Shown here: positions 40,820 through 51,475 of the stretch, in pieces
Numbering within the stretch: the stretch's first letter is position 1
Layout: each line of letters opens with the position of its first letter
Assembly (NCBI GenBank): GCA_028291545.1
Contig: JAQGHR010000130.1
Coordinates: 1-64,000, forward strand
Source: Planctomycetota bacterium
Lineage (GTDB): Bacteria > Planctomycetota > Planctomycetia > Isosphaerales > Isosphaeraceae
Length of the DNA stretch: 64,000 nt
Reading direction: 5' to 3'
Notes under the pieces: generated by a model
What the model saw: the letters and a program-made list of their open reading frames with translations, nothing else
The model's database searches: none
What the model was told of the DNA's origin: nothing
Position numbers and translations under genes: made by a program

Positions 40820-40839
40820 TTCACAAGAAAAATTGTGAA
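40820..40839. promoter_or_regulatory. Candidate SufR operator (TTCACAA-N6-TTGTGAA)
   Basis: A perfect seven-base inverted repeat with a six-base A-rich spacer lies 86 bases before the sufR ATG and 75 bases before the divergent ABC ATPase ATG. The N6 spacing and the ACAA/TTGT core resemble the CAAC-N6-GTTG type site reported for cyanobacterial SufR. If it binds SufR it would autoregulate the suf unit and perhaps also the exporter. Confidence 0.5.
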
Positions 40840-40924
40840 AAAGGTCCGGAGCCGCATAGACGGTCGGGGAAGCCATTTCTACAATAGACAGGACGAGAGA
40901 GAATCCTCGCGAGGCGCGACGCCG

Positions 40925-41572
40925 ATGACGGAAACCTCCGATCGCCAGTTGCTGGATACGATCCGTCGCCACGGTCCGTTGACGGTGGCCGAGATGGTGT
41001 CGCATCTGGGCGTCACCCAGACGGCCGTTCGCAATCGTCTGACCCGCCTGGTCGAGGCGGGCCTGGTCGAGCGTCAGGCGCAGGTCGGTGCCCGGGGACG
41101 TCCCAAACACAGTTATCAGGCGAGTACGGAAGCTCACAAGCGTCTGGGCCAAAATTACGCCGACCTGGCCCTGGTCCTGTGGGATGAGATGATGCGGACC
41201 GTCGAGGACCGCAAGCTCCGCCGGTTCCTGTTCGGCCGGATCACTGACCGAATGGCCGAGATGTACCGGTCGGAGATCACCGCCGACGCCTGGGAAGGCC
41301 GACTCGTTCAATTAGGCACGATCCTCCACGGTCGTGGCGTCGAGGCCGAGGTCACCCGGCAAGGCGATGAATCGCCCATCTTGAAGCAACATTCCTGCCC
41401 GTACTTTGCCCTGGCCGAGACCGACCGCTCCGTCTGCGCGATGGAGCGGAAGATGTTCGAGAAGGTTCTCGGGCATAGCCTGCGACTCAGCCAGTGCCGC
41501 CTCGATGGCCATCGCTCGTGCGACTTCGAGTCGAAGCCAGGCTACGAGCCACCCCCGGCCCAGGCCGGTTGA
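40925..41572 (+). CDS. sufR: SufR-type iron-sulfur-sensing transcriptional regulator
   Basis: A 215-residue regulator. The N-terminal winged helix (DTIRRHGPLTVAEMVSHLGVTQTAVRNRLTRLVEAGLV, wing RGRPKHSY) binds DNA. The C-terminal half carries cysteines in SCPYFALAETDRSVCAM, SQCRLDGHRSCDF, with the CxnC pattern that holds a [4Fe-4S] cluster in SufR. In the family, holo-SufR represses the suf genes and loss of the cluster relieves it. Directly upstream of the suf genes, which supports the assignment. ATG 40925. Confidence 0.88.
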   Translation: MTETSDRQLLDTIRRHGPLTVAEMVSHLGVTQTAVRNRLTRLVEAGLVERQAQVGARGRPKHSYQASTEAHKRLGQNYADLALVLWDEMMRTVEDRKLRRFLFGRITDRMAEMYRSEITADAWEGRLVQLGTILHGRGVEAEVTRQGDESPILKQHSCPYFALAETDRSVCAMERKMFEKVLGHSLRLSQCRLDGHRSCDFESKPGYEPPPAQAG

Positions 41573-42918: not shown

Positions 42919-43164
42919 ATGGCCGAGCAAATTTGCCTCTCACTGCCTGACGAGACCAGGGCTGCGCTCGATGAATACGTGCGAAGGACAGGGGTCAGCA
43001 CAGAGGATGTTTCCCGCGGACTCCTGGAATCCATGCTGTTTTCGGATCGATTCCACCGCTTGCGTGAGGTCCTCGTGCCCCGGGCTGAAGAGCAAGGCGT
43101 CTTGACGGATGACGACGTCTTCGAGCAGGTCTCGCGACCCTGGTCTTCGATACAAATGTCTTGA
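42919..43164 (+). CDS. Antitoxin-like protein partnered with a PIN toxin
   Basis: An 81-residue protein, MAEQICLSLPDETRAALDEYVRRTGVSTEDVSRGLLESMLF..., with the beta strand plus two helices of ribbon-helix-helix antitoxins at the N-terminus and an acidic tail (EEQGVLTDDDVFEQVS) suited to neutralise a PIN ribonuclease. Its 3' end overlaps the proposed PIN start by 25 bases. ATG 42919 is clear. Confidence 0.75.
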   Translation: MAEQICLSLPDETRAALDEYVRRTGVSTEDVSRGLLESMLFSDRFHRLREVLVPRAEEQGVLTDDDVFEQVSRPWSSIQMS

Positions 43165-43538
43165 TCGCCGCCTTTATCGGCCGTGGAGTGTGTGCCATCC
43201 TTTTTGAGAAGTGTGCCCTTGAGCACGAGATCGCTTGTTCGGATGTCATCCTTGGAGAGTTGCGCCACCACCTCGTCGGCAAATTCAAATATTCCTCCCT
43301 CGACGCGGAGGACGTCGTGGATGTCGTTCGGACCGTTTCCCGGATGGTCGAGCCCGCCACCCTCGAATTACCCGCATGTCGCGACCCGGACGACGATCTC
43401 ATCCTCGCGACAGCCGTCACCGCTCGTGCCTCTTGCCTCGTGACAGGCGACAAGGATCGCCCGGTCCTCGAGCGATACAAGGGGATTGAAATCATCCGCC
43501 CGAATCAATTCGGAGATGTCGAGTTCTCGCCTCGTTGA
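43140..43538 (+). CDS. PIN-domain ribonuclease toxin with non-standard start
   Basis: A 132-residue PIN protein. The first active-site motif VFDTNVLIAAF is encoded at 43143-43175, and the rest (ACSDVILGELRHHLVGKF, CRDPDDDLILATAVTARASCLVTGDKD) holds the other acidic residues and the terminal VTGD/KD element. The only in-frame canonical start (TTG 43161) would cut off the FDTN motif; between the upstream stop (43110-43112) and it, only CTG 43140 can begin a complete protein. Either CTG is the start or the gene is read by frameshift from the antitoxin, or is damaged. Confidence 0.7.
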   Translation: MVFDTNVLIAAFIGRGVCAILFEKCALEHEIACSDVILGELRHHLVGKFKYSSLDAEDVVDVVRTVSRMVEPATLELPACRDPDDDLILATAVTARASCLVTGDKDRPVLERYKGIEIIRPNQFGDVEFSPR

Positions 43539-43637: not shown

Positions 43638-45056
43638 ATGTCCATCGACCTCGGCCTACAAGTTCAAGGCATCAAAGACGACTACAAGTACGGCTTCCGG
43701 GACTCGGACGCCAACTACTCGTTCAAGAGCGGCAAGGGCCTCTCGAAGGAGATCGTCGAGCAAATCTCCGATATGAAGGACGAGCCACAGTGGATGCGCG
43801 ACTTTCGCCTGAAGGCCCTGGAAGTCTTCTGGCAGAAGCCGACCCCGCAGTGGGGCGGGCAGTTGAACGAGCTGAACTTCGACGACATCCACTACTACAT
43901 GAGGGCCGCCGATCGCCAGGGCCAGTCCTGGGATGATATGCCCTCGGAGATCAAGAACACCTACGACAAGCTCGGCATCACCGAGGCCTAGCGTCGAGGG
44001 TTGATCGCGGGCGTCGGCGCGCAGTATGAGTCGGAGGTCGTCTACCACTCGCTACGTGAGGATCTCGCCAAGAAGGGCGTGATTTTCACCGACACCGACT
44101 CGGCGGTCCGTGAGTACCCCGACCTGGTCCGCGAGCACTTCGCCACGATCATCCCGATCCAGGACAACAAGTTCGCCGCCCTCAACTCGGCCGTCTGGTC
44201 GGGCGGATCGTTCGTCTACATCCCCAAGGGTGTGAAGGTGGATGTCCCGCTCCAGGCCTATTTCCGTATTAATGCCGAGAACATGGGCCAGTTCGAGCGG
44301 ACGTTGATCATCGTCGAGGAAGGCGCCCAGGTTCACTATGTCGAGGGTTGTACCGCCCCGATCTACACCAGCGAGAGCCTGCACTCGGCCGTCGTCGAGG
44401 TCATCGTCAAGAAGTCCGGCCGATGCCGTTACACGACGATCCAGAACTGGGCGAACAATATCTACAACCTCGTGACCAAGCGGGCGTATGCCTACGAGGA
44501 CGCGGTCATGGAGTGGGTGGACGGCAACCTCGGCAGCCGCCTCACGATGAAGTACCCGGCCGTCCACATGGTCGGCAAGGGGGCTCGCGGCGAGATCCTC
44601 TCGATCGCCTTCGCCGGCAAGGGCCAGCACCAGGACGCCGGCGCGAAGGTCGTCCACTCCGCGCCCTACACGTCGTCGCGGATCATCTCCAAGAGCATCT
44701 CCAAGAACGGCGGCCGCGCCAGCTACCGCGGTCTGCTCCGGGTCGATGCCGGTGCCAAGGGCTCGCGCTCGAATGTGGTCTGCGACGCCCTGATCCTCGA
44801 TCCCCAGTCCCGATCGGATACCTATCCCTACATCGAGATCGACGAGGACGACGTCAAGATCGGCCACGAGGCCAGCGTCTCCAAGATCGGCGAGGAGCAA
44901 CTCTTCTACCTCATGAGCCGTGGGCTCTCCGAGGCGGAAGCCTCCACCCTGATCGTCAGCGGATTCATCGAGCCGCTCGTGAAAGAGCTGCCGATGGAGT
45001 ACGCCGTCGAGATGAACAAGCTGATCCAGTTGCAGATGGAAGGCTCGGTGGGGTGA
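43638..45056 (+). CDS. sufB: SufB, interrupted by an in-frame TAG
   Basis: The scaffold subunit of SufBC2D. The 473-codon frame from ATG 43638 to TGA 45056 is colinear with full-length SufB, including [70 protein letters not shown] and [16 protein letters not shown]. Codon 118 (43989-43991) is TAG, lying in the conserved stretch GITEA[10 protein letters not shown], where relatives have glutamate; GAG to TAG is a single G to T change. Both halves are well conserved and in frame, so this is either suppressed, translated as two pieces (possible TTG restart at 44001, with no usable ribosome site), a recent mutation, or an error of sequencing. Confidence 0.88.
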
Positions 45057-48557: not shown

Positions 48558-48589
48558 GACCCGTCGCAACCTCTCCGAGGATTGGAATC

Positions 48590-48889
48590 ATGCCCGACCA
48601 AACGACCATCCTGGACGCGCTCCGCACCGTGAAGGACCCGGAACTCGGGGTCAACGTCGTCGATCTCGGATTGGTCTACACGGTCCAAACCCGAGAGGAC
48701 CAGGTTGACGTGGAAATGACGTTGACCTCACCTGCCTGCCCCGCCGGTCCCCAGATCCTTCGTGAGTCGGCGGCGGCACTGGAGAAGATCGAGGGCGTCA
48801 CGAAGGCCAACGTCCGGCTCGTCATGAATCCTCCCTGGTCCCAGGATAAGATGAGCGATGCCGCCCGCGACGAATTAGGAATTTTCTGA
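48590..48889 (+). CDS. DUF59/MIP18-type iron-sulfur assembly protein (SufT-like)
   Basis: A 99-residue protein with the DUF59 signature KDPELGVNVVDLGLVYTV and the cysteine-bearing MTLTSPACPAGPQI, and a helical end with MNPPWSQDKMSDAARDELGIF. SufT-type members help maturation of Fe-S proteins. ATG 48590 with GAGG upstream; it closes the suf unit. Confidence 0.9.
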   Translation: MPDQTTILDALRTVKDPELGVNVVDLGLVYTVQTREDQVDVEMTLTSPACPAGPQILRESAAALEKIEGVTKANVRLVMNPPWSQDKMSDAARDELGIF

Positions 48890-49153: not shown

Positions 49154-49930
49154 GTGGCTCGAAAGAAGACAGCGACAGTTCGGGTCAACGTGAAGGCGCA
49201 AATCTCGGGCCGCCTCCGTGCAATCCGTCAGGAGCTTTTCGGCGAGCACGGCGGGCCGGAGCTGGCTCGCCGCCTCAATCTTCCCGCGCGGACCTGGTAC
49301 AACTACGAGACCGGCGTCACCGTCCCGGCCGAGGTGCTGCTCAGCTTCATCGATCAGACCGGGACCAACCCGGTCTGGCTCCTCAGCGGTGAAGGGGCGA
49401 AATTCACGCGCGGCCCCGAAGAATTCGCCCTGGACGACATGACGCCTCAGCAACTCATCCGTCGTGGCCTGGAAAAGCTCGAGGAATCGTCGAGCGGAGC
49501 GGCCGAGAACCGGGTGCAAGACTGCCTATCCCTGGACCTGGTGCCGCTGTCCGCCCTCTGCCAGTACCGGCACGGAACGGTCGATTCCGAGGATCAGGTC
49601 CTGGCCGATCAGCAATGGATCCCTCATCCGTCCGAGACCGTGGCTGCTCGGCTTGAAGATGAAGCCATGACCCCGGTGTTACCGGCCGGGTCGGTCGTGG
49701 CGATCGACTTTTCCGTGCGAGATCCCGCGTTTCTCACCGGGCGCCTGGCCGTCATCTGCATCAGCGGAGTCGCGATCGTGCGATGGCTGGAATTGACCGG
49801 CCGCCACATCGTCTTGCGCCCCAATCAGATCAGTCGCGCTTATCCGATGATCCCGCTCGAGCTCGGTGGCGAGGCTCAGGAATCGATCCTCGGTCAAGTC
49901 GTCTGGTCCTGGAGCCAATTCGGGGAGTGA
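49154..49930 (+). CDS. S24/LexA-fold XRE regulator without the catalytic dyad
   Basis: A 258-residue regulator. An XRE helix-turn-helix (about 15-75; LARRLNLPARTWYNYETG) is joined by a linker to a peptidase S24-type C-terminal domain (about 160-258). The family's catalytic Ser in the D-S-M motif is Ala171 here (LEDEAMTP) and the usual Lys is Arg210 (GVAIVRWLEL), so self-cleavage should be impossible. It could act as a stable repressor sensing something else. GTG 49154 has GGGGAG upstream. No phage gene surrounds it. Confidence 0.82.
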   Translation: MARKKTATVRVNVKAQISGRLRAIRQELFGEHGGPELARRLNLPARTWYNYETGVTVPAEVLLSFIDQTGTNPVWLLSGEGAKFTRGPEEFALDDMTPQQLIRRGLEKLEESSSGAAENRVQDCLSLDLVPLSALCQYRHGTVDSEDQVLADQQWIPHPSETVAARLEDEAMTPVLPAGSVVAIDFSVRDPAFLTGRLAVICISGVAIVRWLELTGRHIVLRPNQISRAYPMIPLELGGEAQESILGQVVWSWSQFGE

Positions 49931-50089: not shown

Positions 50090-51475
50090 ATGACGTCGCT
50101 CCGCGCTTCCGGCGTTCGACGGCTGAACGCGCTGCTGCAACAGTCGCGTGAGCCGGTCTTCGTGATCGACCCGCAAGGCCGATTCGTCTTCGTCAACCGG
50201 GCCTGGGAAGAACTCACAGGCCACTCGGCCGAGCGGACGCTGGGCGGGACGACGATCCCCGTCGGCGCGTCGTCGGCAACGGACTCCGAGTCCGCGTTTT
50301 TCCCGCCGGCGGAGGCGTTCAACGGCGTCCCGTCCGGTGGCATCAATCTCATTGTTCGCGAGGGGGGCGAACGCCTCTGGCGGCGGGTCGAGTTCTGGCC
50401 CTATCACGACCCCGAGGGCAAGCTCCTGGGTATCTTCGGGCTGGTCCGGGACGTGAACGCTCATCCTCACGCCCCCGAGGCCGAGTCCTTGAAGGCCCGA
50501 TCCGAATTGCTGGAAGCCCGCGAGGCACTCCGACTTCGACATGGGTTCGACACGCTCGTCGGTCGAGGCCCTCGACATGAGCGGTTGCTCGAACAGATCA
50601 CCGCCGCCGCGTCTTCCAGAGCACCGGTTCTCCTCGTCGGTGAGCCCGGCACGGGAAAGCGGCAGATCGCGCGAATCCTCCATCAGCGGGGCTCGACACC
50701 CGACGCCCCGCTCGTTCCCATCGACGTCTCCGCGTTGTCGGCCGACGTGGTCGAAAAGGAACTGTTCTTCCCGCAAGTTGATGGGACGGCCCGCCTTGGT
50801 TTGCCCGAGGACGCGACGCTCTCGTTCGGCGACCTCGTCGATCTTCCTCGCGACCTCCAGGCCCGCCTCGCCACCGCGATCCGTGGCTCCTCGATCCGGC
50901 TGATCGCCAGGACGTGCGTCGATCCCGAGCAGGCGGCGCGGGACGACCGCTTGCGGAGCGACCTCTATTACACCCTGACCGTTCTCGTCCTTCGACTGGC
51001 CCCATTGCGGGAACGCATTGACGAACTTCCGCTGCTGGCCCAGCATTTCCTGGAGGTCGCGAACCGTCGAGGCCCCGGCAGGCGTTCCGGATTCCATCCC
51101 GAGACCCTTGAAGTCCTGGCCGCGTACGACTGGCCGGGGAATCTCCGCGAACTTGCCCGCGTGATCGAGTCCGCGCACGGTCGTGGGGAGACCGATCGCA
51201 TCACCGCCGAGGACCTCCCCGCCGCCATCCGGGGTGACCTCGCCTCCTCTTACGCCGCGCCAATGCCGACCCCGGCGATCACTCCTCTGGATCTCTGGCT
51301 CACCCAGTTGGAGCGCCGCTTGATCGAGCAGGCTCTCCAGCGCGCCCGGCAGAACAAATCTCGCGCCGCCGAGCTTCTCGATATCTCGCGCCCCAGGCTC
51401 TACCGCCGCATCAAAGAGCTGAACATCCCCGATGAAGGCGACGCCGCCGAGGACGTGCCCGCCGAGAGTCGCTGA
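50090..51475 (+). CDS. PAS and AAA+ regulator resembling a degenerate sigma-54 activator
   Basis: A 461-residue protein. PAS domain at about 12-125 (PVFVIDPQGRFVFVNRAWEELTG), then an AAA+ core (about 150-385) with Walker A GEPGTGKRQIARIL and the R-finger region SDLYYTLTVLVLRLAPLRER, then a Fis-type HTH (ELLDISRPRLYRRIKEL). The sigma-54-binding GAFTGA loop is not present (LFFPQVDGTARLG) and Walker B (normally LFLDE) reads TLSFGDLVD. It may regulate without remodelling sigma-54. ATG 50090 lies 159 bases after the S24-type gene. Confidence 0.85.
   Translation: MTSLRASGVRRLNALLQQSREPVFVIDPQGRFVFVNRAWEELTGHSAERTLGGTTIPVGASSATDSESAFFPPAEAFNGVPSGGINLIVREGGERLWRRVEFWPYHDPEGKLLGIFGLVRDVNAHPHAPEAESLKARSELLEAREALRLRHGFDTLVGRGPRHERLLEQITAAASSRAPVLLVGEPGTGKRQIARILHQRGSTPDAPLVPIDVSALSADVVEKELFFPQVDGTARLGLPEDATLSFGDLVDLPRDLQARLATAIRGSSIRLIARTCVDPEQAARDDRLRSDLYYTLTVLVLRLAPLRERIDELPLLAQHFLEVANRRGPGRRSGFHPETLEVLAAYDWPGNLRELARVIESAHGRGETDRITAEDLPAAIRGDLASSYAAPMPTPAITPLDLWLTQLERRLIEQALQRARQNKSRAAELLDISRPRLYRRIKELNIPDEGDAAEDVPAESR

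Follow-up and report, generated by a model that had tools for sequence, protein, structure and literature searches.

The gene at the centre of this report raises the question of what an S24-fold regulator does, and how its state is set, once the residues for self-cleavage are gone from it. The gene lies in a window of 64,000 nucleotides, the whole stretch of DNA that was analysed (positions 1 to 64,000, forward strand, of contig JAQGHR010000130.1, assembly GCA_028291545.1), from a Planctomycetota bacterium of the family Isosphaeraceae. The initial annotation, made from the sequence alone, had described the product as a LexA/S24-fold repressor with Ala and Arg in place of the catalytic Ser-Lys dyad, unable to cut itself by the known route, so that its switch must come from a ligand, a partner or stress. 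The coordinates of the features discussed here are given in Table 1.

Table 1. Positions in the window of the regulator gene, its functional sites and its neighbours
Feature	Position	Strand	Basis or remark
MarR-type regulator of the suf cluster, maybe SufR-like	40835-41572		upstream
sufT-like gene (FeS_assembly_P), upstream neighbour	48587..48889	+	Pfam; start codon is the authors' choice
S24-fold regulator gene with dead dyad (group A)	49154..49930	+	GTG start, 258 aa; Pfam Peptidase_S24, E 5.9e-8
CI/XRE-type helix-turn-helix, residues about 16-81	49199..49396	+	Sub-threshold Pfam matches, conservation, XRE/CI folds
S24 (LexA/CI) fold domain without lysine, residues 121-258	49514..49927	+	Pfam, predicted structure, lysine positions
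Cys136-Gln137 at the place of the scissile Ala-Gly	49559..49564	+	Alignment with AAG-bearing relatives
Ala171, position of the catalytic Ser (E. coli LexA S119)	49664..49666	+	Alignments; motif DEAMTP
Arg210, position of the catalytic Lys (E. coli LexA K156)	49781..49783	+	Alignments; motif VRWL
PAS + AAA+ (sigma54-activator-like) + Fis helix-turn-helix gene, downstream neighbour and candidate partner	50090..51475	+	Pfam, 33-genome alignment, linkage

The start codon is in a register shared across 42 orthologues, the window's own included, 40 of which begin with GTG and two with TTG. Pfam places the Peptidase_S24 domain (PF00717) at residues 146-250 with 32.9 bits against a cut-off of 23.3. 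The helix-turn-helix models that matched the protein at E-values up to 1 were HTH_31 (0.002) and Phage_CI_repr (0.027), both under their Pfam cut-offs, and HTH_19; no LexA model, as expected for a LexA-type winged helix-turn-helix, was among them. NCBIfam gave no match at E-values up to 0.1, and the protein matched phrog_4, annotated as a transcriptional repressor, with an E-value of 7.9e-20. The predicted structure (mean pLDDT, 78.8; pTM, 0.53; 76 to 94 in ten-residue blocks of the S24 part) has the LexA/CI fold, with Z scores of 14.8 and 14.2 for LexA, 13.6 for lambda CI, 11.8 for 186 CI and 11.7 for UmuD'. Foldseek agreed on this fold, with 2fjr as its best match, and the helix-turn-helix part resembled XRE/CI folds at Z scores of 8 to 10. 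The predicted model thus bears out the fold that had been proposed, as likeness of fold only, residue pairs not being part of the output of the comparison tools used. The DNA-binding domain is of the XRE/CI type rather than that of LexA, and the genome encodes a canonical LexA separately.

Placing the dyad positions fell to alignment. A profile of 34 orthologues, compared with E. coli LexA in the PDB, put position 171 on S119 and position 210 on K156, with a best E-value of 0.036 and thus a weak sequence signal. The PDB searched by sequence with the window protein alone yielded no S24 chain, and a profile comparison with the LexA of its own genome alone reached 6% probability. When 31 S24 proteins with an intact dyad, from 31 Isosphaeraceae genomes, were aligned with the group, their Ser and Lys fell in columns 171 and 210 in all 31. 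The lysines of the window protein are at positions 4, 5, 14, 83 and 108 only, and since none follows residue 108, a Ser-Lys dyad is impossible in its S24 domain whatever the alignment. The LexA profile, the intact-dyad columns, the fold and the lysine count together confirm that Ala171, in the motif DEAMTP, and Arg210 occupy the dyad positions; a search for another Ser and Lys that might fill them found no candidate Lys. Of the features of an active S24 peptidase the protein has the fold, and the Ser, the Lys and the Ala-Gly (or Cys-Gly) bond are all absent, as is with them the equipment for the RecA-dependent self-cleavage of LexA. The sequence evidence strongly supports the view that the protein would not cleave itself by the known route.

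The substitution at position 210 is a property of the family. An orthologue (group A) was found in 42 of 45 Isosphaeraceae genomes, the window's own included, at 46 to 63% identity, and some match in 44 of the 45; named examples come from Singulisphaera acidiphila, Aquisphaera insulae, Tautonia sociabilis and Paludisphaera soli. Among the 45 family genomes no group A orthologue was found in G005, G012 and G034, which are 93 to 99% complete, so the gene is not indispensable. In a class-wide sample 46 of 297 genomes gave a match, and outside Isosphaeraceae only 2 of 252 did, weakly. One orthologue (L124) sits on a contig labelled Alphaproteobacteria bacterium RI_251, perhaps a mislabelled bin.

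All 42 group A proteins have Arg at position 210, whereas position 171 is Ala in 28 and Ser in 14. The survey of homologues therefore upheld one half of the proposed substitution, Arg210 being fixed and Ala171 not. Twenty-four proteins lack Ala-Gly and have Ala and Arg, 14 lack it and have Ser and Arg, and four have Ala-Gly, at the equivalent of 136-137, with Ala and Arg; in none of the 42 is more than one of Ser, Lys and Ala-Gly found together. A Lys occurs somewhere from residue 150 on in 29 of the 42, never at 210; together with Ser171 in 14 proteins, this makes an unusual cleavage mechanism formally possible there. On a tree of the 42 proteins, built by a quick method and with a long-branch warning that covers the window's own row, position 171 requires at least 10 changes and position 210 is unvarying. 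The Lys-to-Arg replacement is therefore the event that became fixed, with the Ser site drifting between Ala and Ser, and the change at the dyad positions is old. Much of the helix-turn-helix is invariant among 34 aligned orthologues, which speaks for purifying selection, and within the S24 domain Arg210, S180, D185 and R222 are invariant in all 34, Ser180 and Asp185 in all 42.

Three S24 matches exceed the cut-off in the genome of the window, which is 77.7% complete: the window protein, a paralogue (group B) and the canonical LexA, in which AAG, Ser and Lys are all present. Across the family a match of at least 84 bits was found in 44 of 45 genomes (in the exception, G009, a partial match of 50 bits lies at the end of a contig), and the intact dyad of these S24 matches was read in 31 genomes. 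Group B, represented by 28 fetched paralogues (L050 3946-4737 and 27 further loci, L045-L072), has a dead dyad too, with Arg (27) or Gly (1) at position 210 and Ala (23), Ser (2), His (1), Asp (1) or Thr (1) at position 171. An FHA-like gene lies upstream of paralogue B on the same strand in 26 of the 28 loci. Loci that extend far enough also show tig- and clpP-like genes past it, on the opposite strand; these three gene names were assigned by eye.

When 392 genomes of the phylum were searched with a profile, 40 matched at E-values of 1e-6 or lower, two of them Isosphaeraceae. Twenty places outside the family were picked by hand, favouring coverage of the S24 domain, so that the frequencies among them are biased. 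Six of these relatives have Lys at position 210, all with Ser and five with the AAG site; in the other 14 that position is Arg, the Ser site being occupied by Ser, Asp, Glu, Ala, Gly or Cys, and Ala-Gly is lost in 13 of them. The exception (L167, in G644), on a long branch, keeps AAG and Ser with Arg for Lys, and from its sequence looks like a possible intermediate in the loss of self-cleavage, with the Lys lost first. A wider tree, of 55 proteins picked by hand, calls for two changes at position 210 and 11 at position 171. Many family genomes also encode short relatives of about 90 residues with the same DNA-binding domain and nothing else (most of the 20 places fetched, L180-L199), and in L192 and L193 the same helix-turn-helix is fused to a domain that is SnoaL/NTF2-like by eye. 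Such Cro-like paralogues may compete for an operator of group A; this is only an idea, because by eye their recognition helix is partly unlike that of group A.

These observations support with good confidence the reading of the window protein as a non-cleaving, chromosomal CI-like regulator of Isosphaeraceae whose S24-fold domain is no longer a peptidase. What sets its state is a separate matter, and here the neighbourhood of the gene comes in. A suf cluster precedes the gene, with a MarR-type regulator, ABC ATPase, SufB, SufD, rhodanese, SufE and SufT-like gene, and the PAS + AAA+ + Fis-type gene and lpxB follow it. Within the cluster of the window an ORF with a PIN_3 domain (43161-43538) separates the suf ABC ATPase gene from sufB, and the early N-terminal region is missing from the ORF of sufB (44001-45056), SufBD_N being matched only from model position 106; a truncation, an insertion or a matter of the start site may account for this.

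In 34 of 42 genomes the PAS-AAA+ gene is found no more than 4 kb downstream of group A. Of the other eight, five have less than 2 kb of downstream sequence, and in three, all of one genus, it is absent from the 5 to 6.3 kb available. Some cases count against a strict pairing: in these three, G017, G018 and G020, the PAS-AAA+ gene, which resembles a bacterial enhancer-binding protein (bEBP), is elsewhere in the genome and does not adjoin group A; G005 has a bEBP-like gene (49%) without group A; and in L042-L044, three of the 34 linked loci, the neighbour shares only about 30% identity and may be a different gene. In three loci (L035, L077 and L082) about 1 kb separates the regulator from the bEBP-like gene, with no clear gene and with short translated pieces that look similar by eye; Rfam at gathering thresholds (four sources) and ARAGORN (three) found no RNA gene or tRNA in this gap.

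The downstream protein itself appears catalytically degenerate. The motifs sought in it were the GAFTGA loop and the Walker A and Walker B patterns. A GAFTGA-like loop was found in none of the 33 aligned genomes. The Walker B acidic pair was found by pattern in two, and in five at most if the Glu-Asp of L042-L044 is included, so that it is missing in 28; the Walker A pattern is kept in 26. The window's own PAS-AAA+ protein has neither GAFTGA nor the Walker B acidic pair. As a control, G[AS]F[TS]GA was found in 8 of 11 strong PF00158 proteins of the same genome, two others having near variants and one showing none, and RpoN is present in that genome.

Where a regulator of this kind would bind was sought upstream of the gene. 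In the 300 bp upstream of the 42 orthologues an inverted repeat, TCCCG-N4-CGGGA, lies just ahead of the start codon; in L014, L019, L021 and L026 it falls at about -23 to -9, mostly as TCCCG-N4/5-CGGGA and often followed by TnGAGCnCC before the GTG. Stems of at least 5 occur in 19 of the 42, where shuffled sequences gave 2.7 on average and 8 at most, and the repeat is absent upstream of the window gene itself. Its spacer varies in length and several copies are preceded by a GGAGG-like stretch, so that a hairpin in the 5' leader is as likely as an operator; when 48-nt stretches were folded, other structures were often preferred. A scan allowing one mismatch found it in 41 of 45 genomes, mostly in few copies and up to 15 per genome among the matches listed, compared with 0 to 4 per genome, among the matches listed, for the reversed pattern. 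We make no claim for the repeat as an operator or the mark of a regulon, on these grounds: its absence in the window, its varying spacer, the preference for other folds and the matches genome-wide. No operator or regulated gene of group A was found in the upstream regions of the 42 orthologues or in the 45-genome scan, so that the term "repressor" rests on homology.

The initial annotation had held that a switch must act through a ligand, a partner or stress. This does not follow, since the protein may be unswitched or may be set by its synthesis or turnover. It is quite possible, if not the reading we favour, that it is a constitutive repressor without a signal switch, whose level is governed by transcription, translation and ordinary proteolysis and whose S24 fold is a plain dimerisation domain. 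No ligand or partner is evident in the present data, and the inverted repeat ahead of the start codon in many orthologues, though not in the window, could set synthesis. The invariance of Arg210, S180, D185 and R222 in 34 of 34 sequences is perhaps more than a plain dimer domain needs, however, and neighbours with signal domains are conserved.

Less probable, and on balance unlikely, is a role as regulator of the adjoining suf operon for Fe-S assembly, perhaps as a redox or Fe-S sensor. In 33 of 42 genomes a sufT-like gene on the same strand precedes the regulator by no more than 2 kb (for some of the remaining nine the upstream sequence is shorter than that), and position 202 is Cys in 14 of 42 proteins. 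Yet the suf cluster has its own MarR-type regulator, and where the suf genes are reversed, in the Tautonia-type loci L091, L093 and L094, the regulator and the PAS-AAA+ gene are still together. The other cysteines of the domain speak against sensing as well: position 124 is Phe in 38 proteins, Tyr in 3 and Cys in 1, and at position 136 Cys is outside the seven commonest residues. With two of its three C-terminal cysteines hardly conserved and the third in 14 of 42, Fe-S sensing through them was set aside as unlikely.

Self-cleavage by some other chemistry, in which for instance Ser180, or Ser171 in the proteins that have it, would be the nucleophile, helped by an Arg or Asp, strikes us as highly improbable. 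Ser180 and Asp185 in every orthologue and Ser171 in a third of them (14/42) would offer the parts, but the window protein lacks Lys throughout this domain, Ala-Gly occurs in only four of 42 proteins and there always with Ala171, and LexA altered by K156R alone serves as an uncleavable form in the work described in PMC5760743. That the gene is a decaying prophage repressor, as its CI-type domain order and phrog_4 match might suggest, is scarcely credible given that 42 of 45 family genomes have an orthologue, that sufT precedes it in 33 of 42, that the helix-turn-helix is largely invariant in 34, and that the surroundings are chromosomal (suf, bEBP-like gene, lpxB) with no prophage context seen.

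For the non-cleaving CI-like regulator itself we propose that a dimer would bind a conserved operator as a repressor through the conserved helix-turn-helix, and that the S24-fold domain would now serve dimerisation and the reception of a signal. Its state would then be set by binding and not by cutting, with no RecA-driven self-cleavage, and switching would be reversible, most likely by a bound partner and otherwise by a ligand or a modification. A partner is the first guess because groups A and B each have a conserved neighbour with a signal domain; the PAS bEBP-like gene beside A and the FHA-like gene beside B make the idea plausible from gene order. That a specific partner throws the switch, with the PAS bEBP-like protein next door as the first candidate, we put forward tentatively; the neighbours of A may simply be the suf locus.

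S24 regulators with a dead dyad are already known, and by our comparison the closest worked example for the window regulator is CI of coliphage 186, followed by the LexA of Synechocystis. Like the window protein, 186 CI combines a CI-type helix-turn-helix with an S24-fold domain (2fkd, Z 11.8; 2fjr, Z 11.2), and in an alignment that is weak, about 0.8 bits for the C-terminal stretch, its residues at the Ser and Lys positions are Gly and Arg. According to PMC3121763, the antirepressor Tum binds 186 CI and prevents its binding to the operator. The 186 protein is the product of a phage gene with this antirepressor, whereas the window regulator is chromosomal and family-wide and has no antirepressor known for it. 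The LexA of Synechocystis PCC 6803 is likewise a chromosomal S24-fold regulator without the Ala-Gly site and without the dyad Ser, and the accounts in PMC7567884 and PMC2921402 describe an absence of cleavage products in salt stress and propose gradual control by phosphorylation. That protein is the LexA of its organism, whereas the window regulator has a CI/XRE helix-turn-helix and stands alongside a canonical LexA.

With canonical LexA, lambda CI and UmuD the window protein has its C-terminal fold in common, but without Ser, Lys and Ala-Gly it would not be cleavable with RecA by the known route. A helix-turn-helix combined with an S24 domain is found also in IrvR, HdiR, PrlP and Bacteroidetes S24 regulators, which PMC7101444, PMC12273997 and PMC8565304 describe as employed outside or instead of LexA. 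The downstream gene in turn is without the GAFTGA loop, as are the bEBPs NtrC of Caulobacter and Rhodobacter and VspR; PMC10274813 also describes the motif, and reports that such proteins work at sigma70 promoters in Caulobacter and Rhodobacter. The downstream protein differs from these in its PAS domain and in the missing Walker B acidic pair (28 of 33). In the open-access literature, searched by titles and abstract openings, we recognised nothing on Lys-to-Arg S24 regulators of planctomycetes or of this family. What is apparently new, within the literature searched, is a family-wide chromosomal S24 regulator, with Arg in all orthologues seen, beside a catalytically degenerate bEBP-like protein.

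The pattern of Arg at the Lys site, a family-wide chromosomal case in Isosphaeraceae, extends into the phylum. A broader and more speculative picture, which we consider rather doubtful as yet, is that Planctomycetota have a large class of S24-fold regulators that dropped catalysis through the Lys-to-Arg change and turned the former active-site cleft, in which Arg is retained and Ser may vary, into a pocket for a partner or ligand. Two of them in Isosphaeraceae would each be coupled to a signal reader of its own, A to a PAS protein with a dead-looking AAA+ domain, and B to a protein of FHA-like type. In that broader picture A and its neighbour, each once an enzyme, would together make up a switch that works through binding alone. 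For annotation, an Arg in place of the Lys could be a convenient sign of a non-cleaving regulator, and the genes conserved beside the regulators are testable candidates for switching a repressor without proteolysis.
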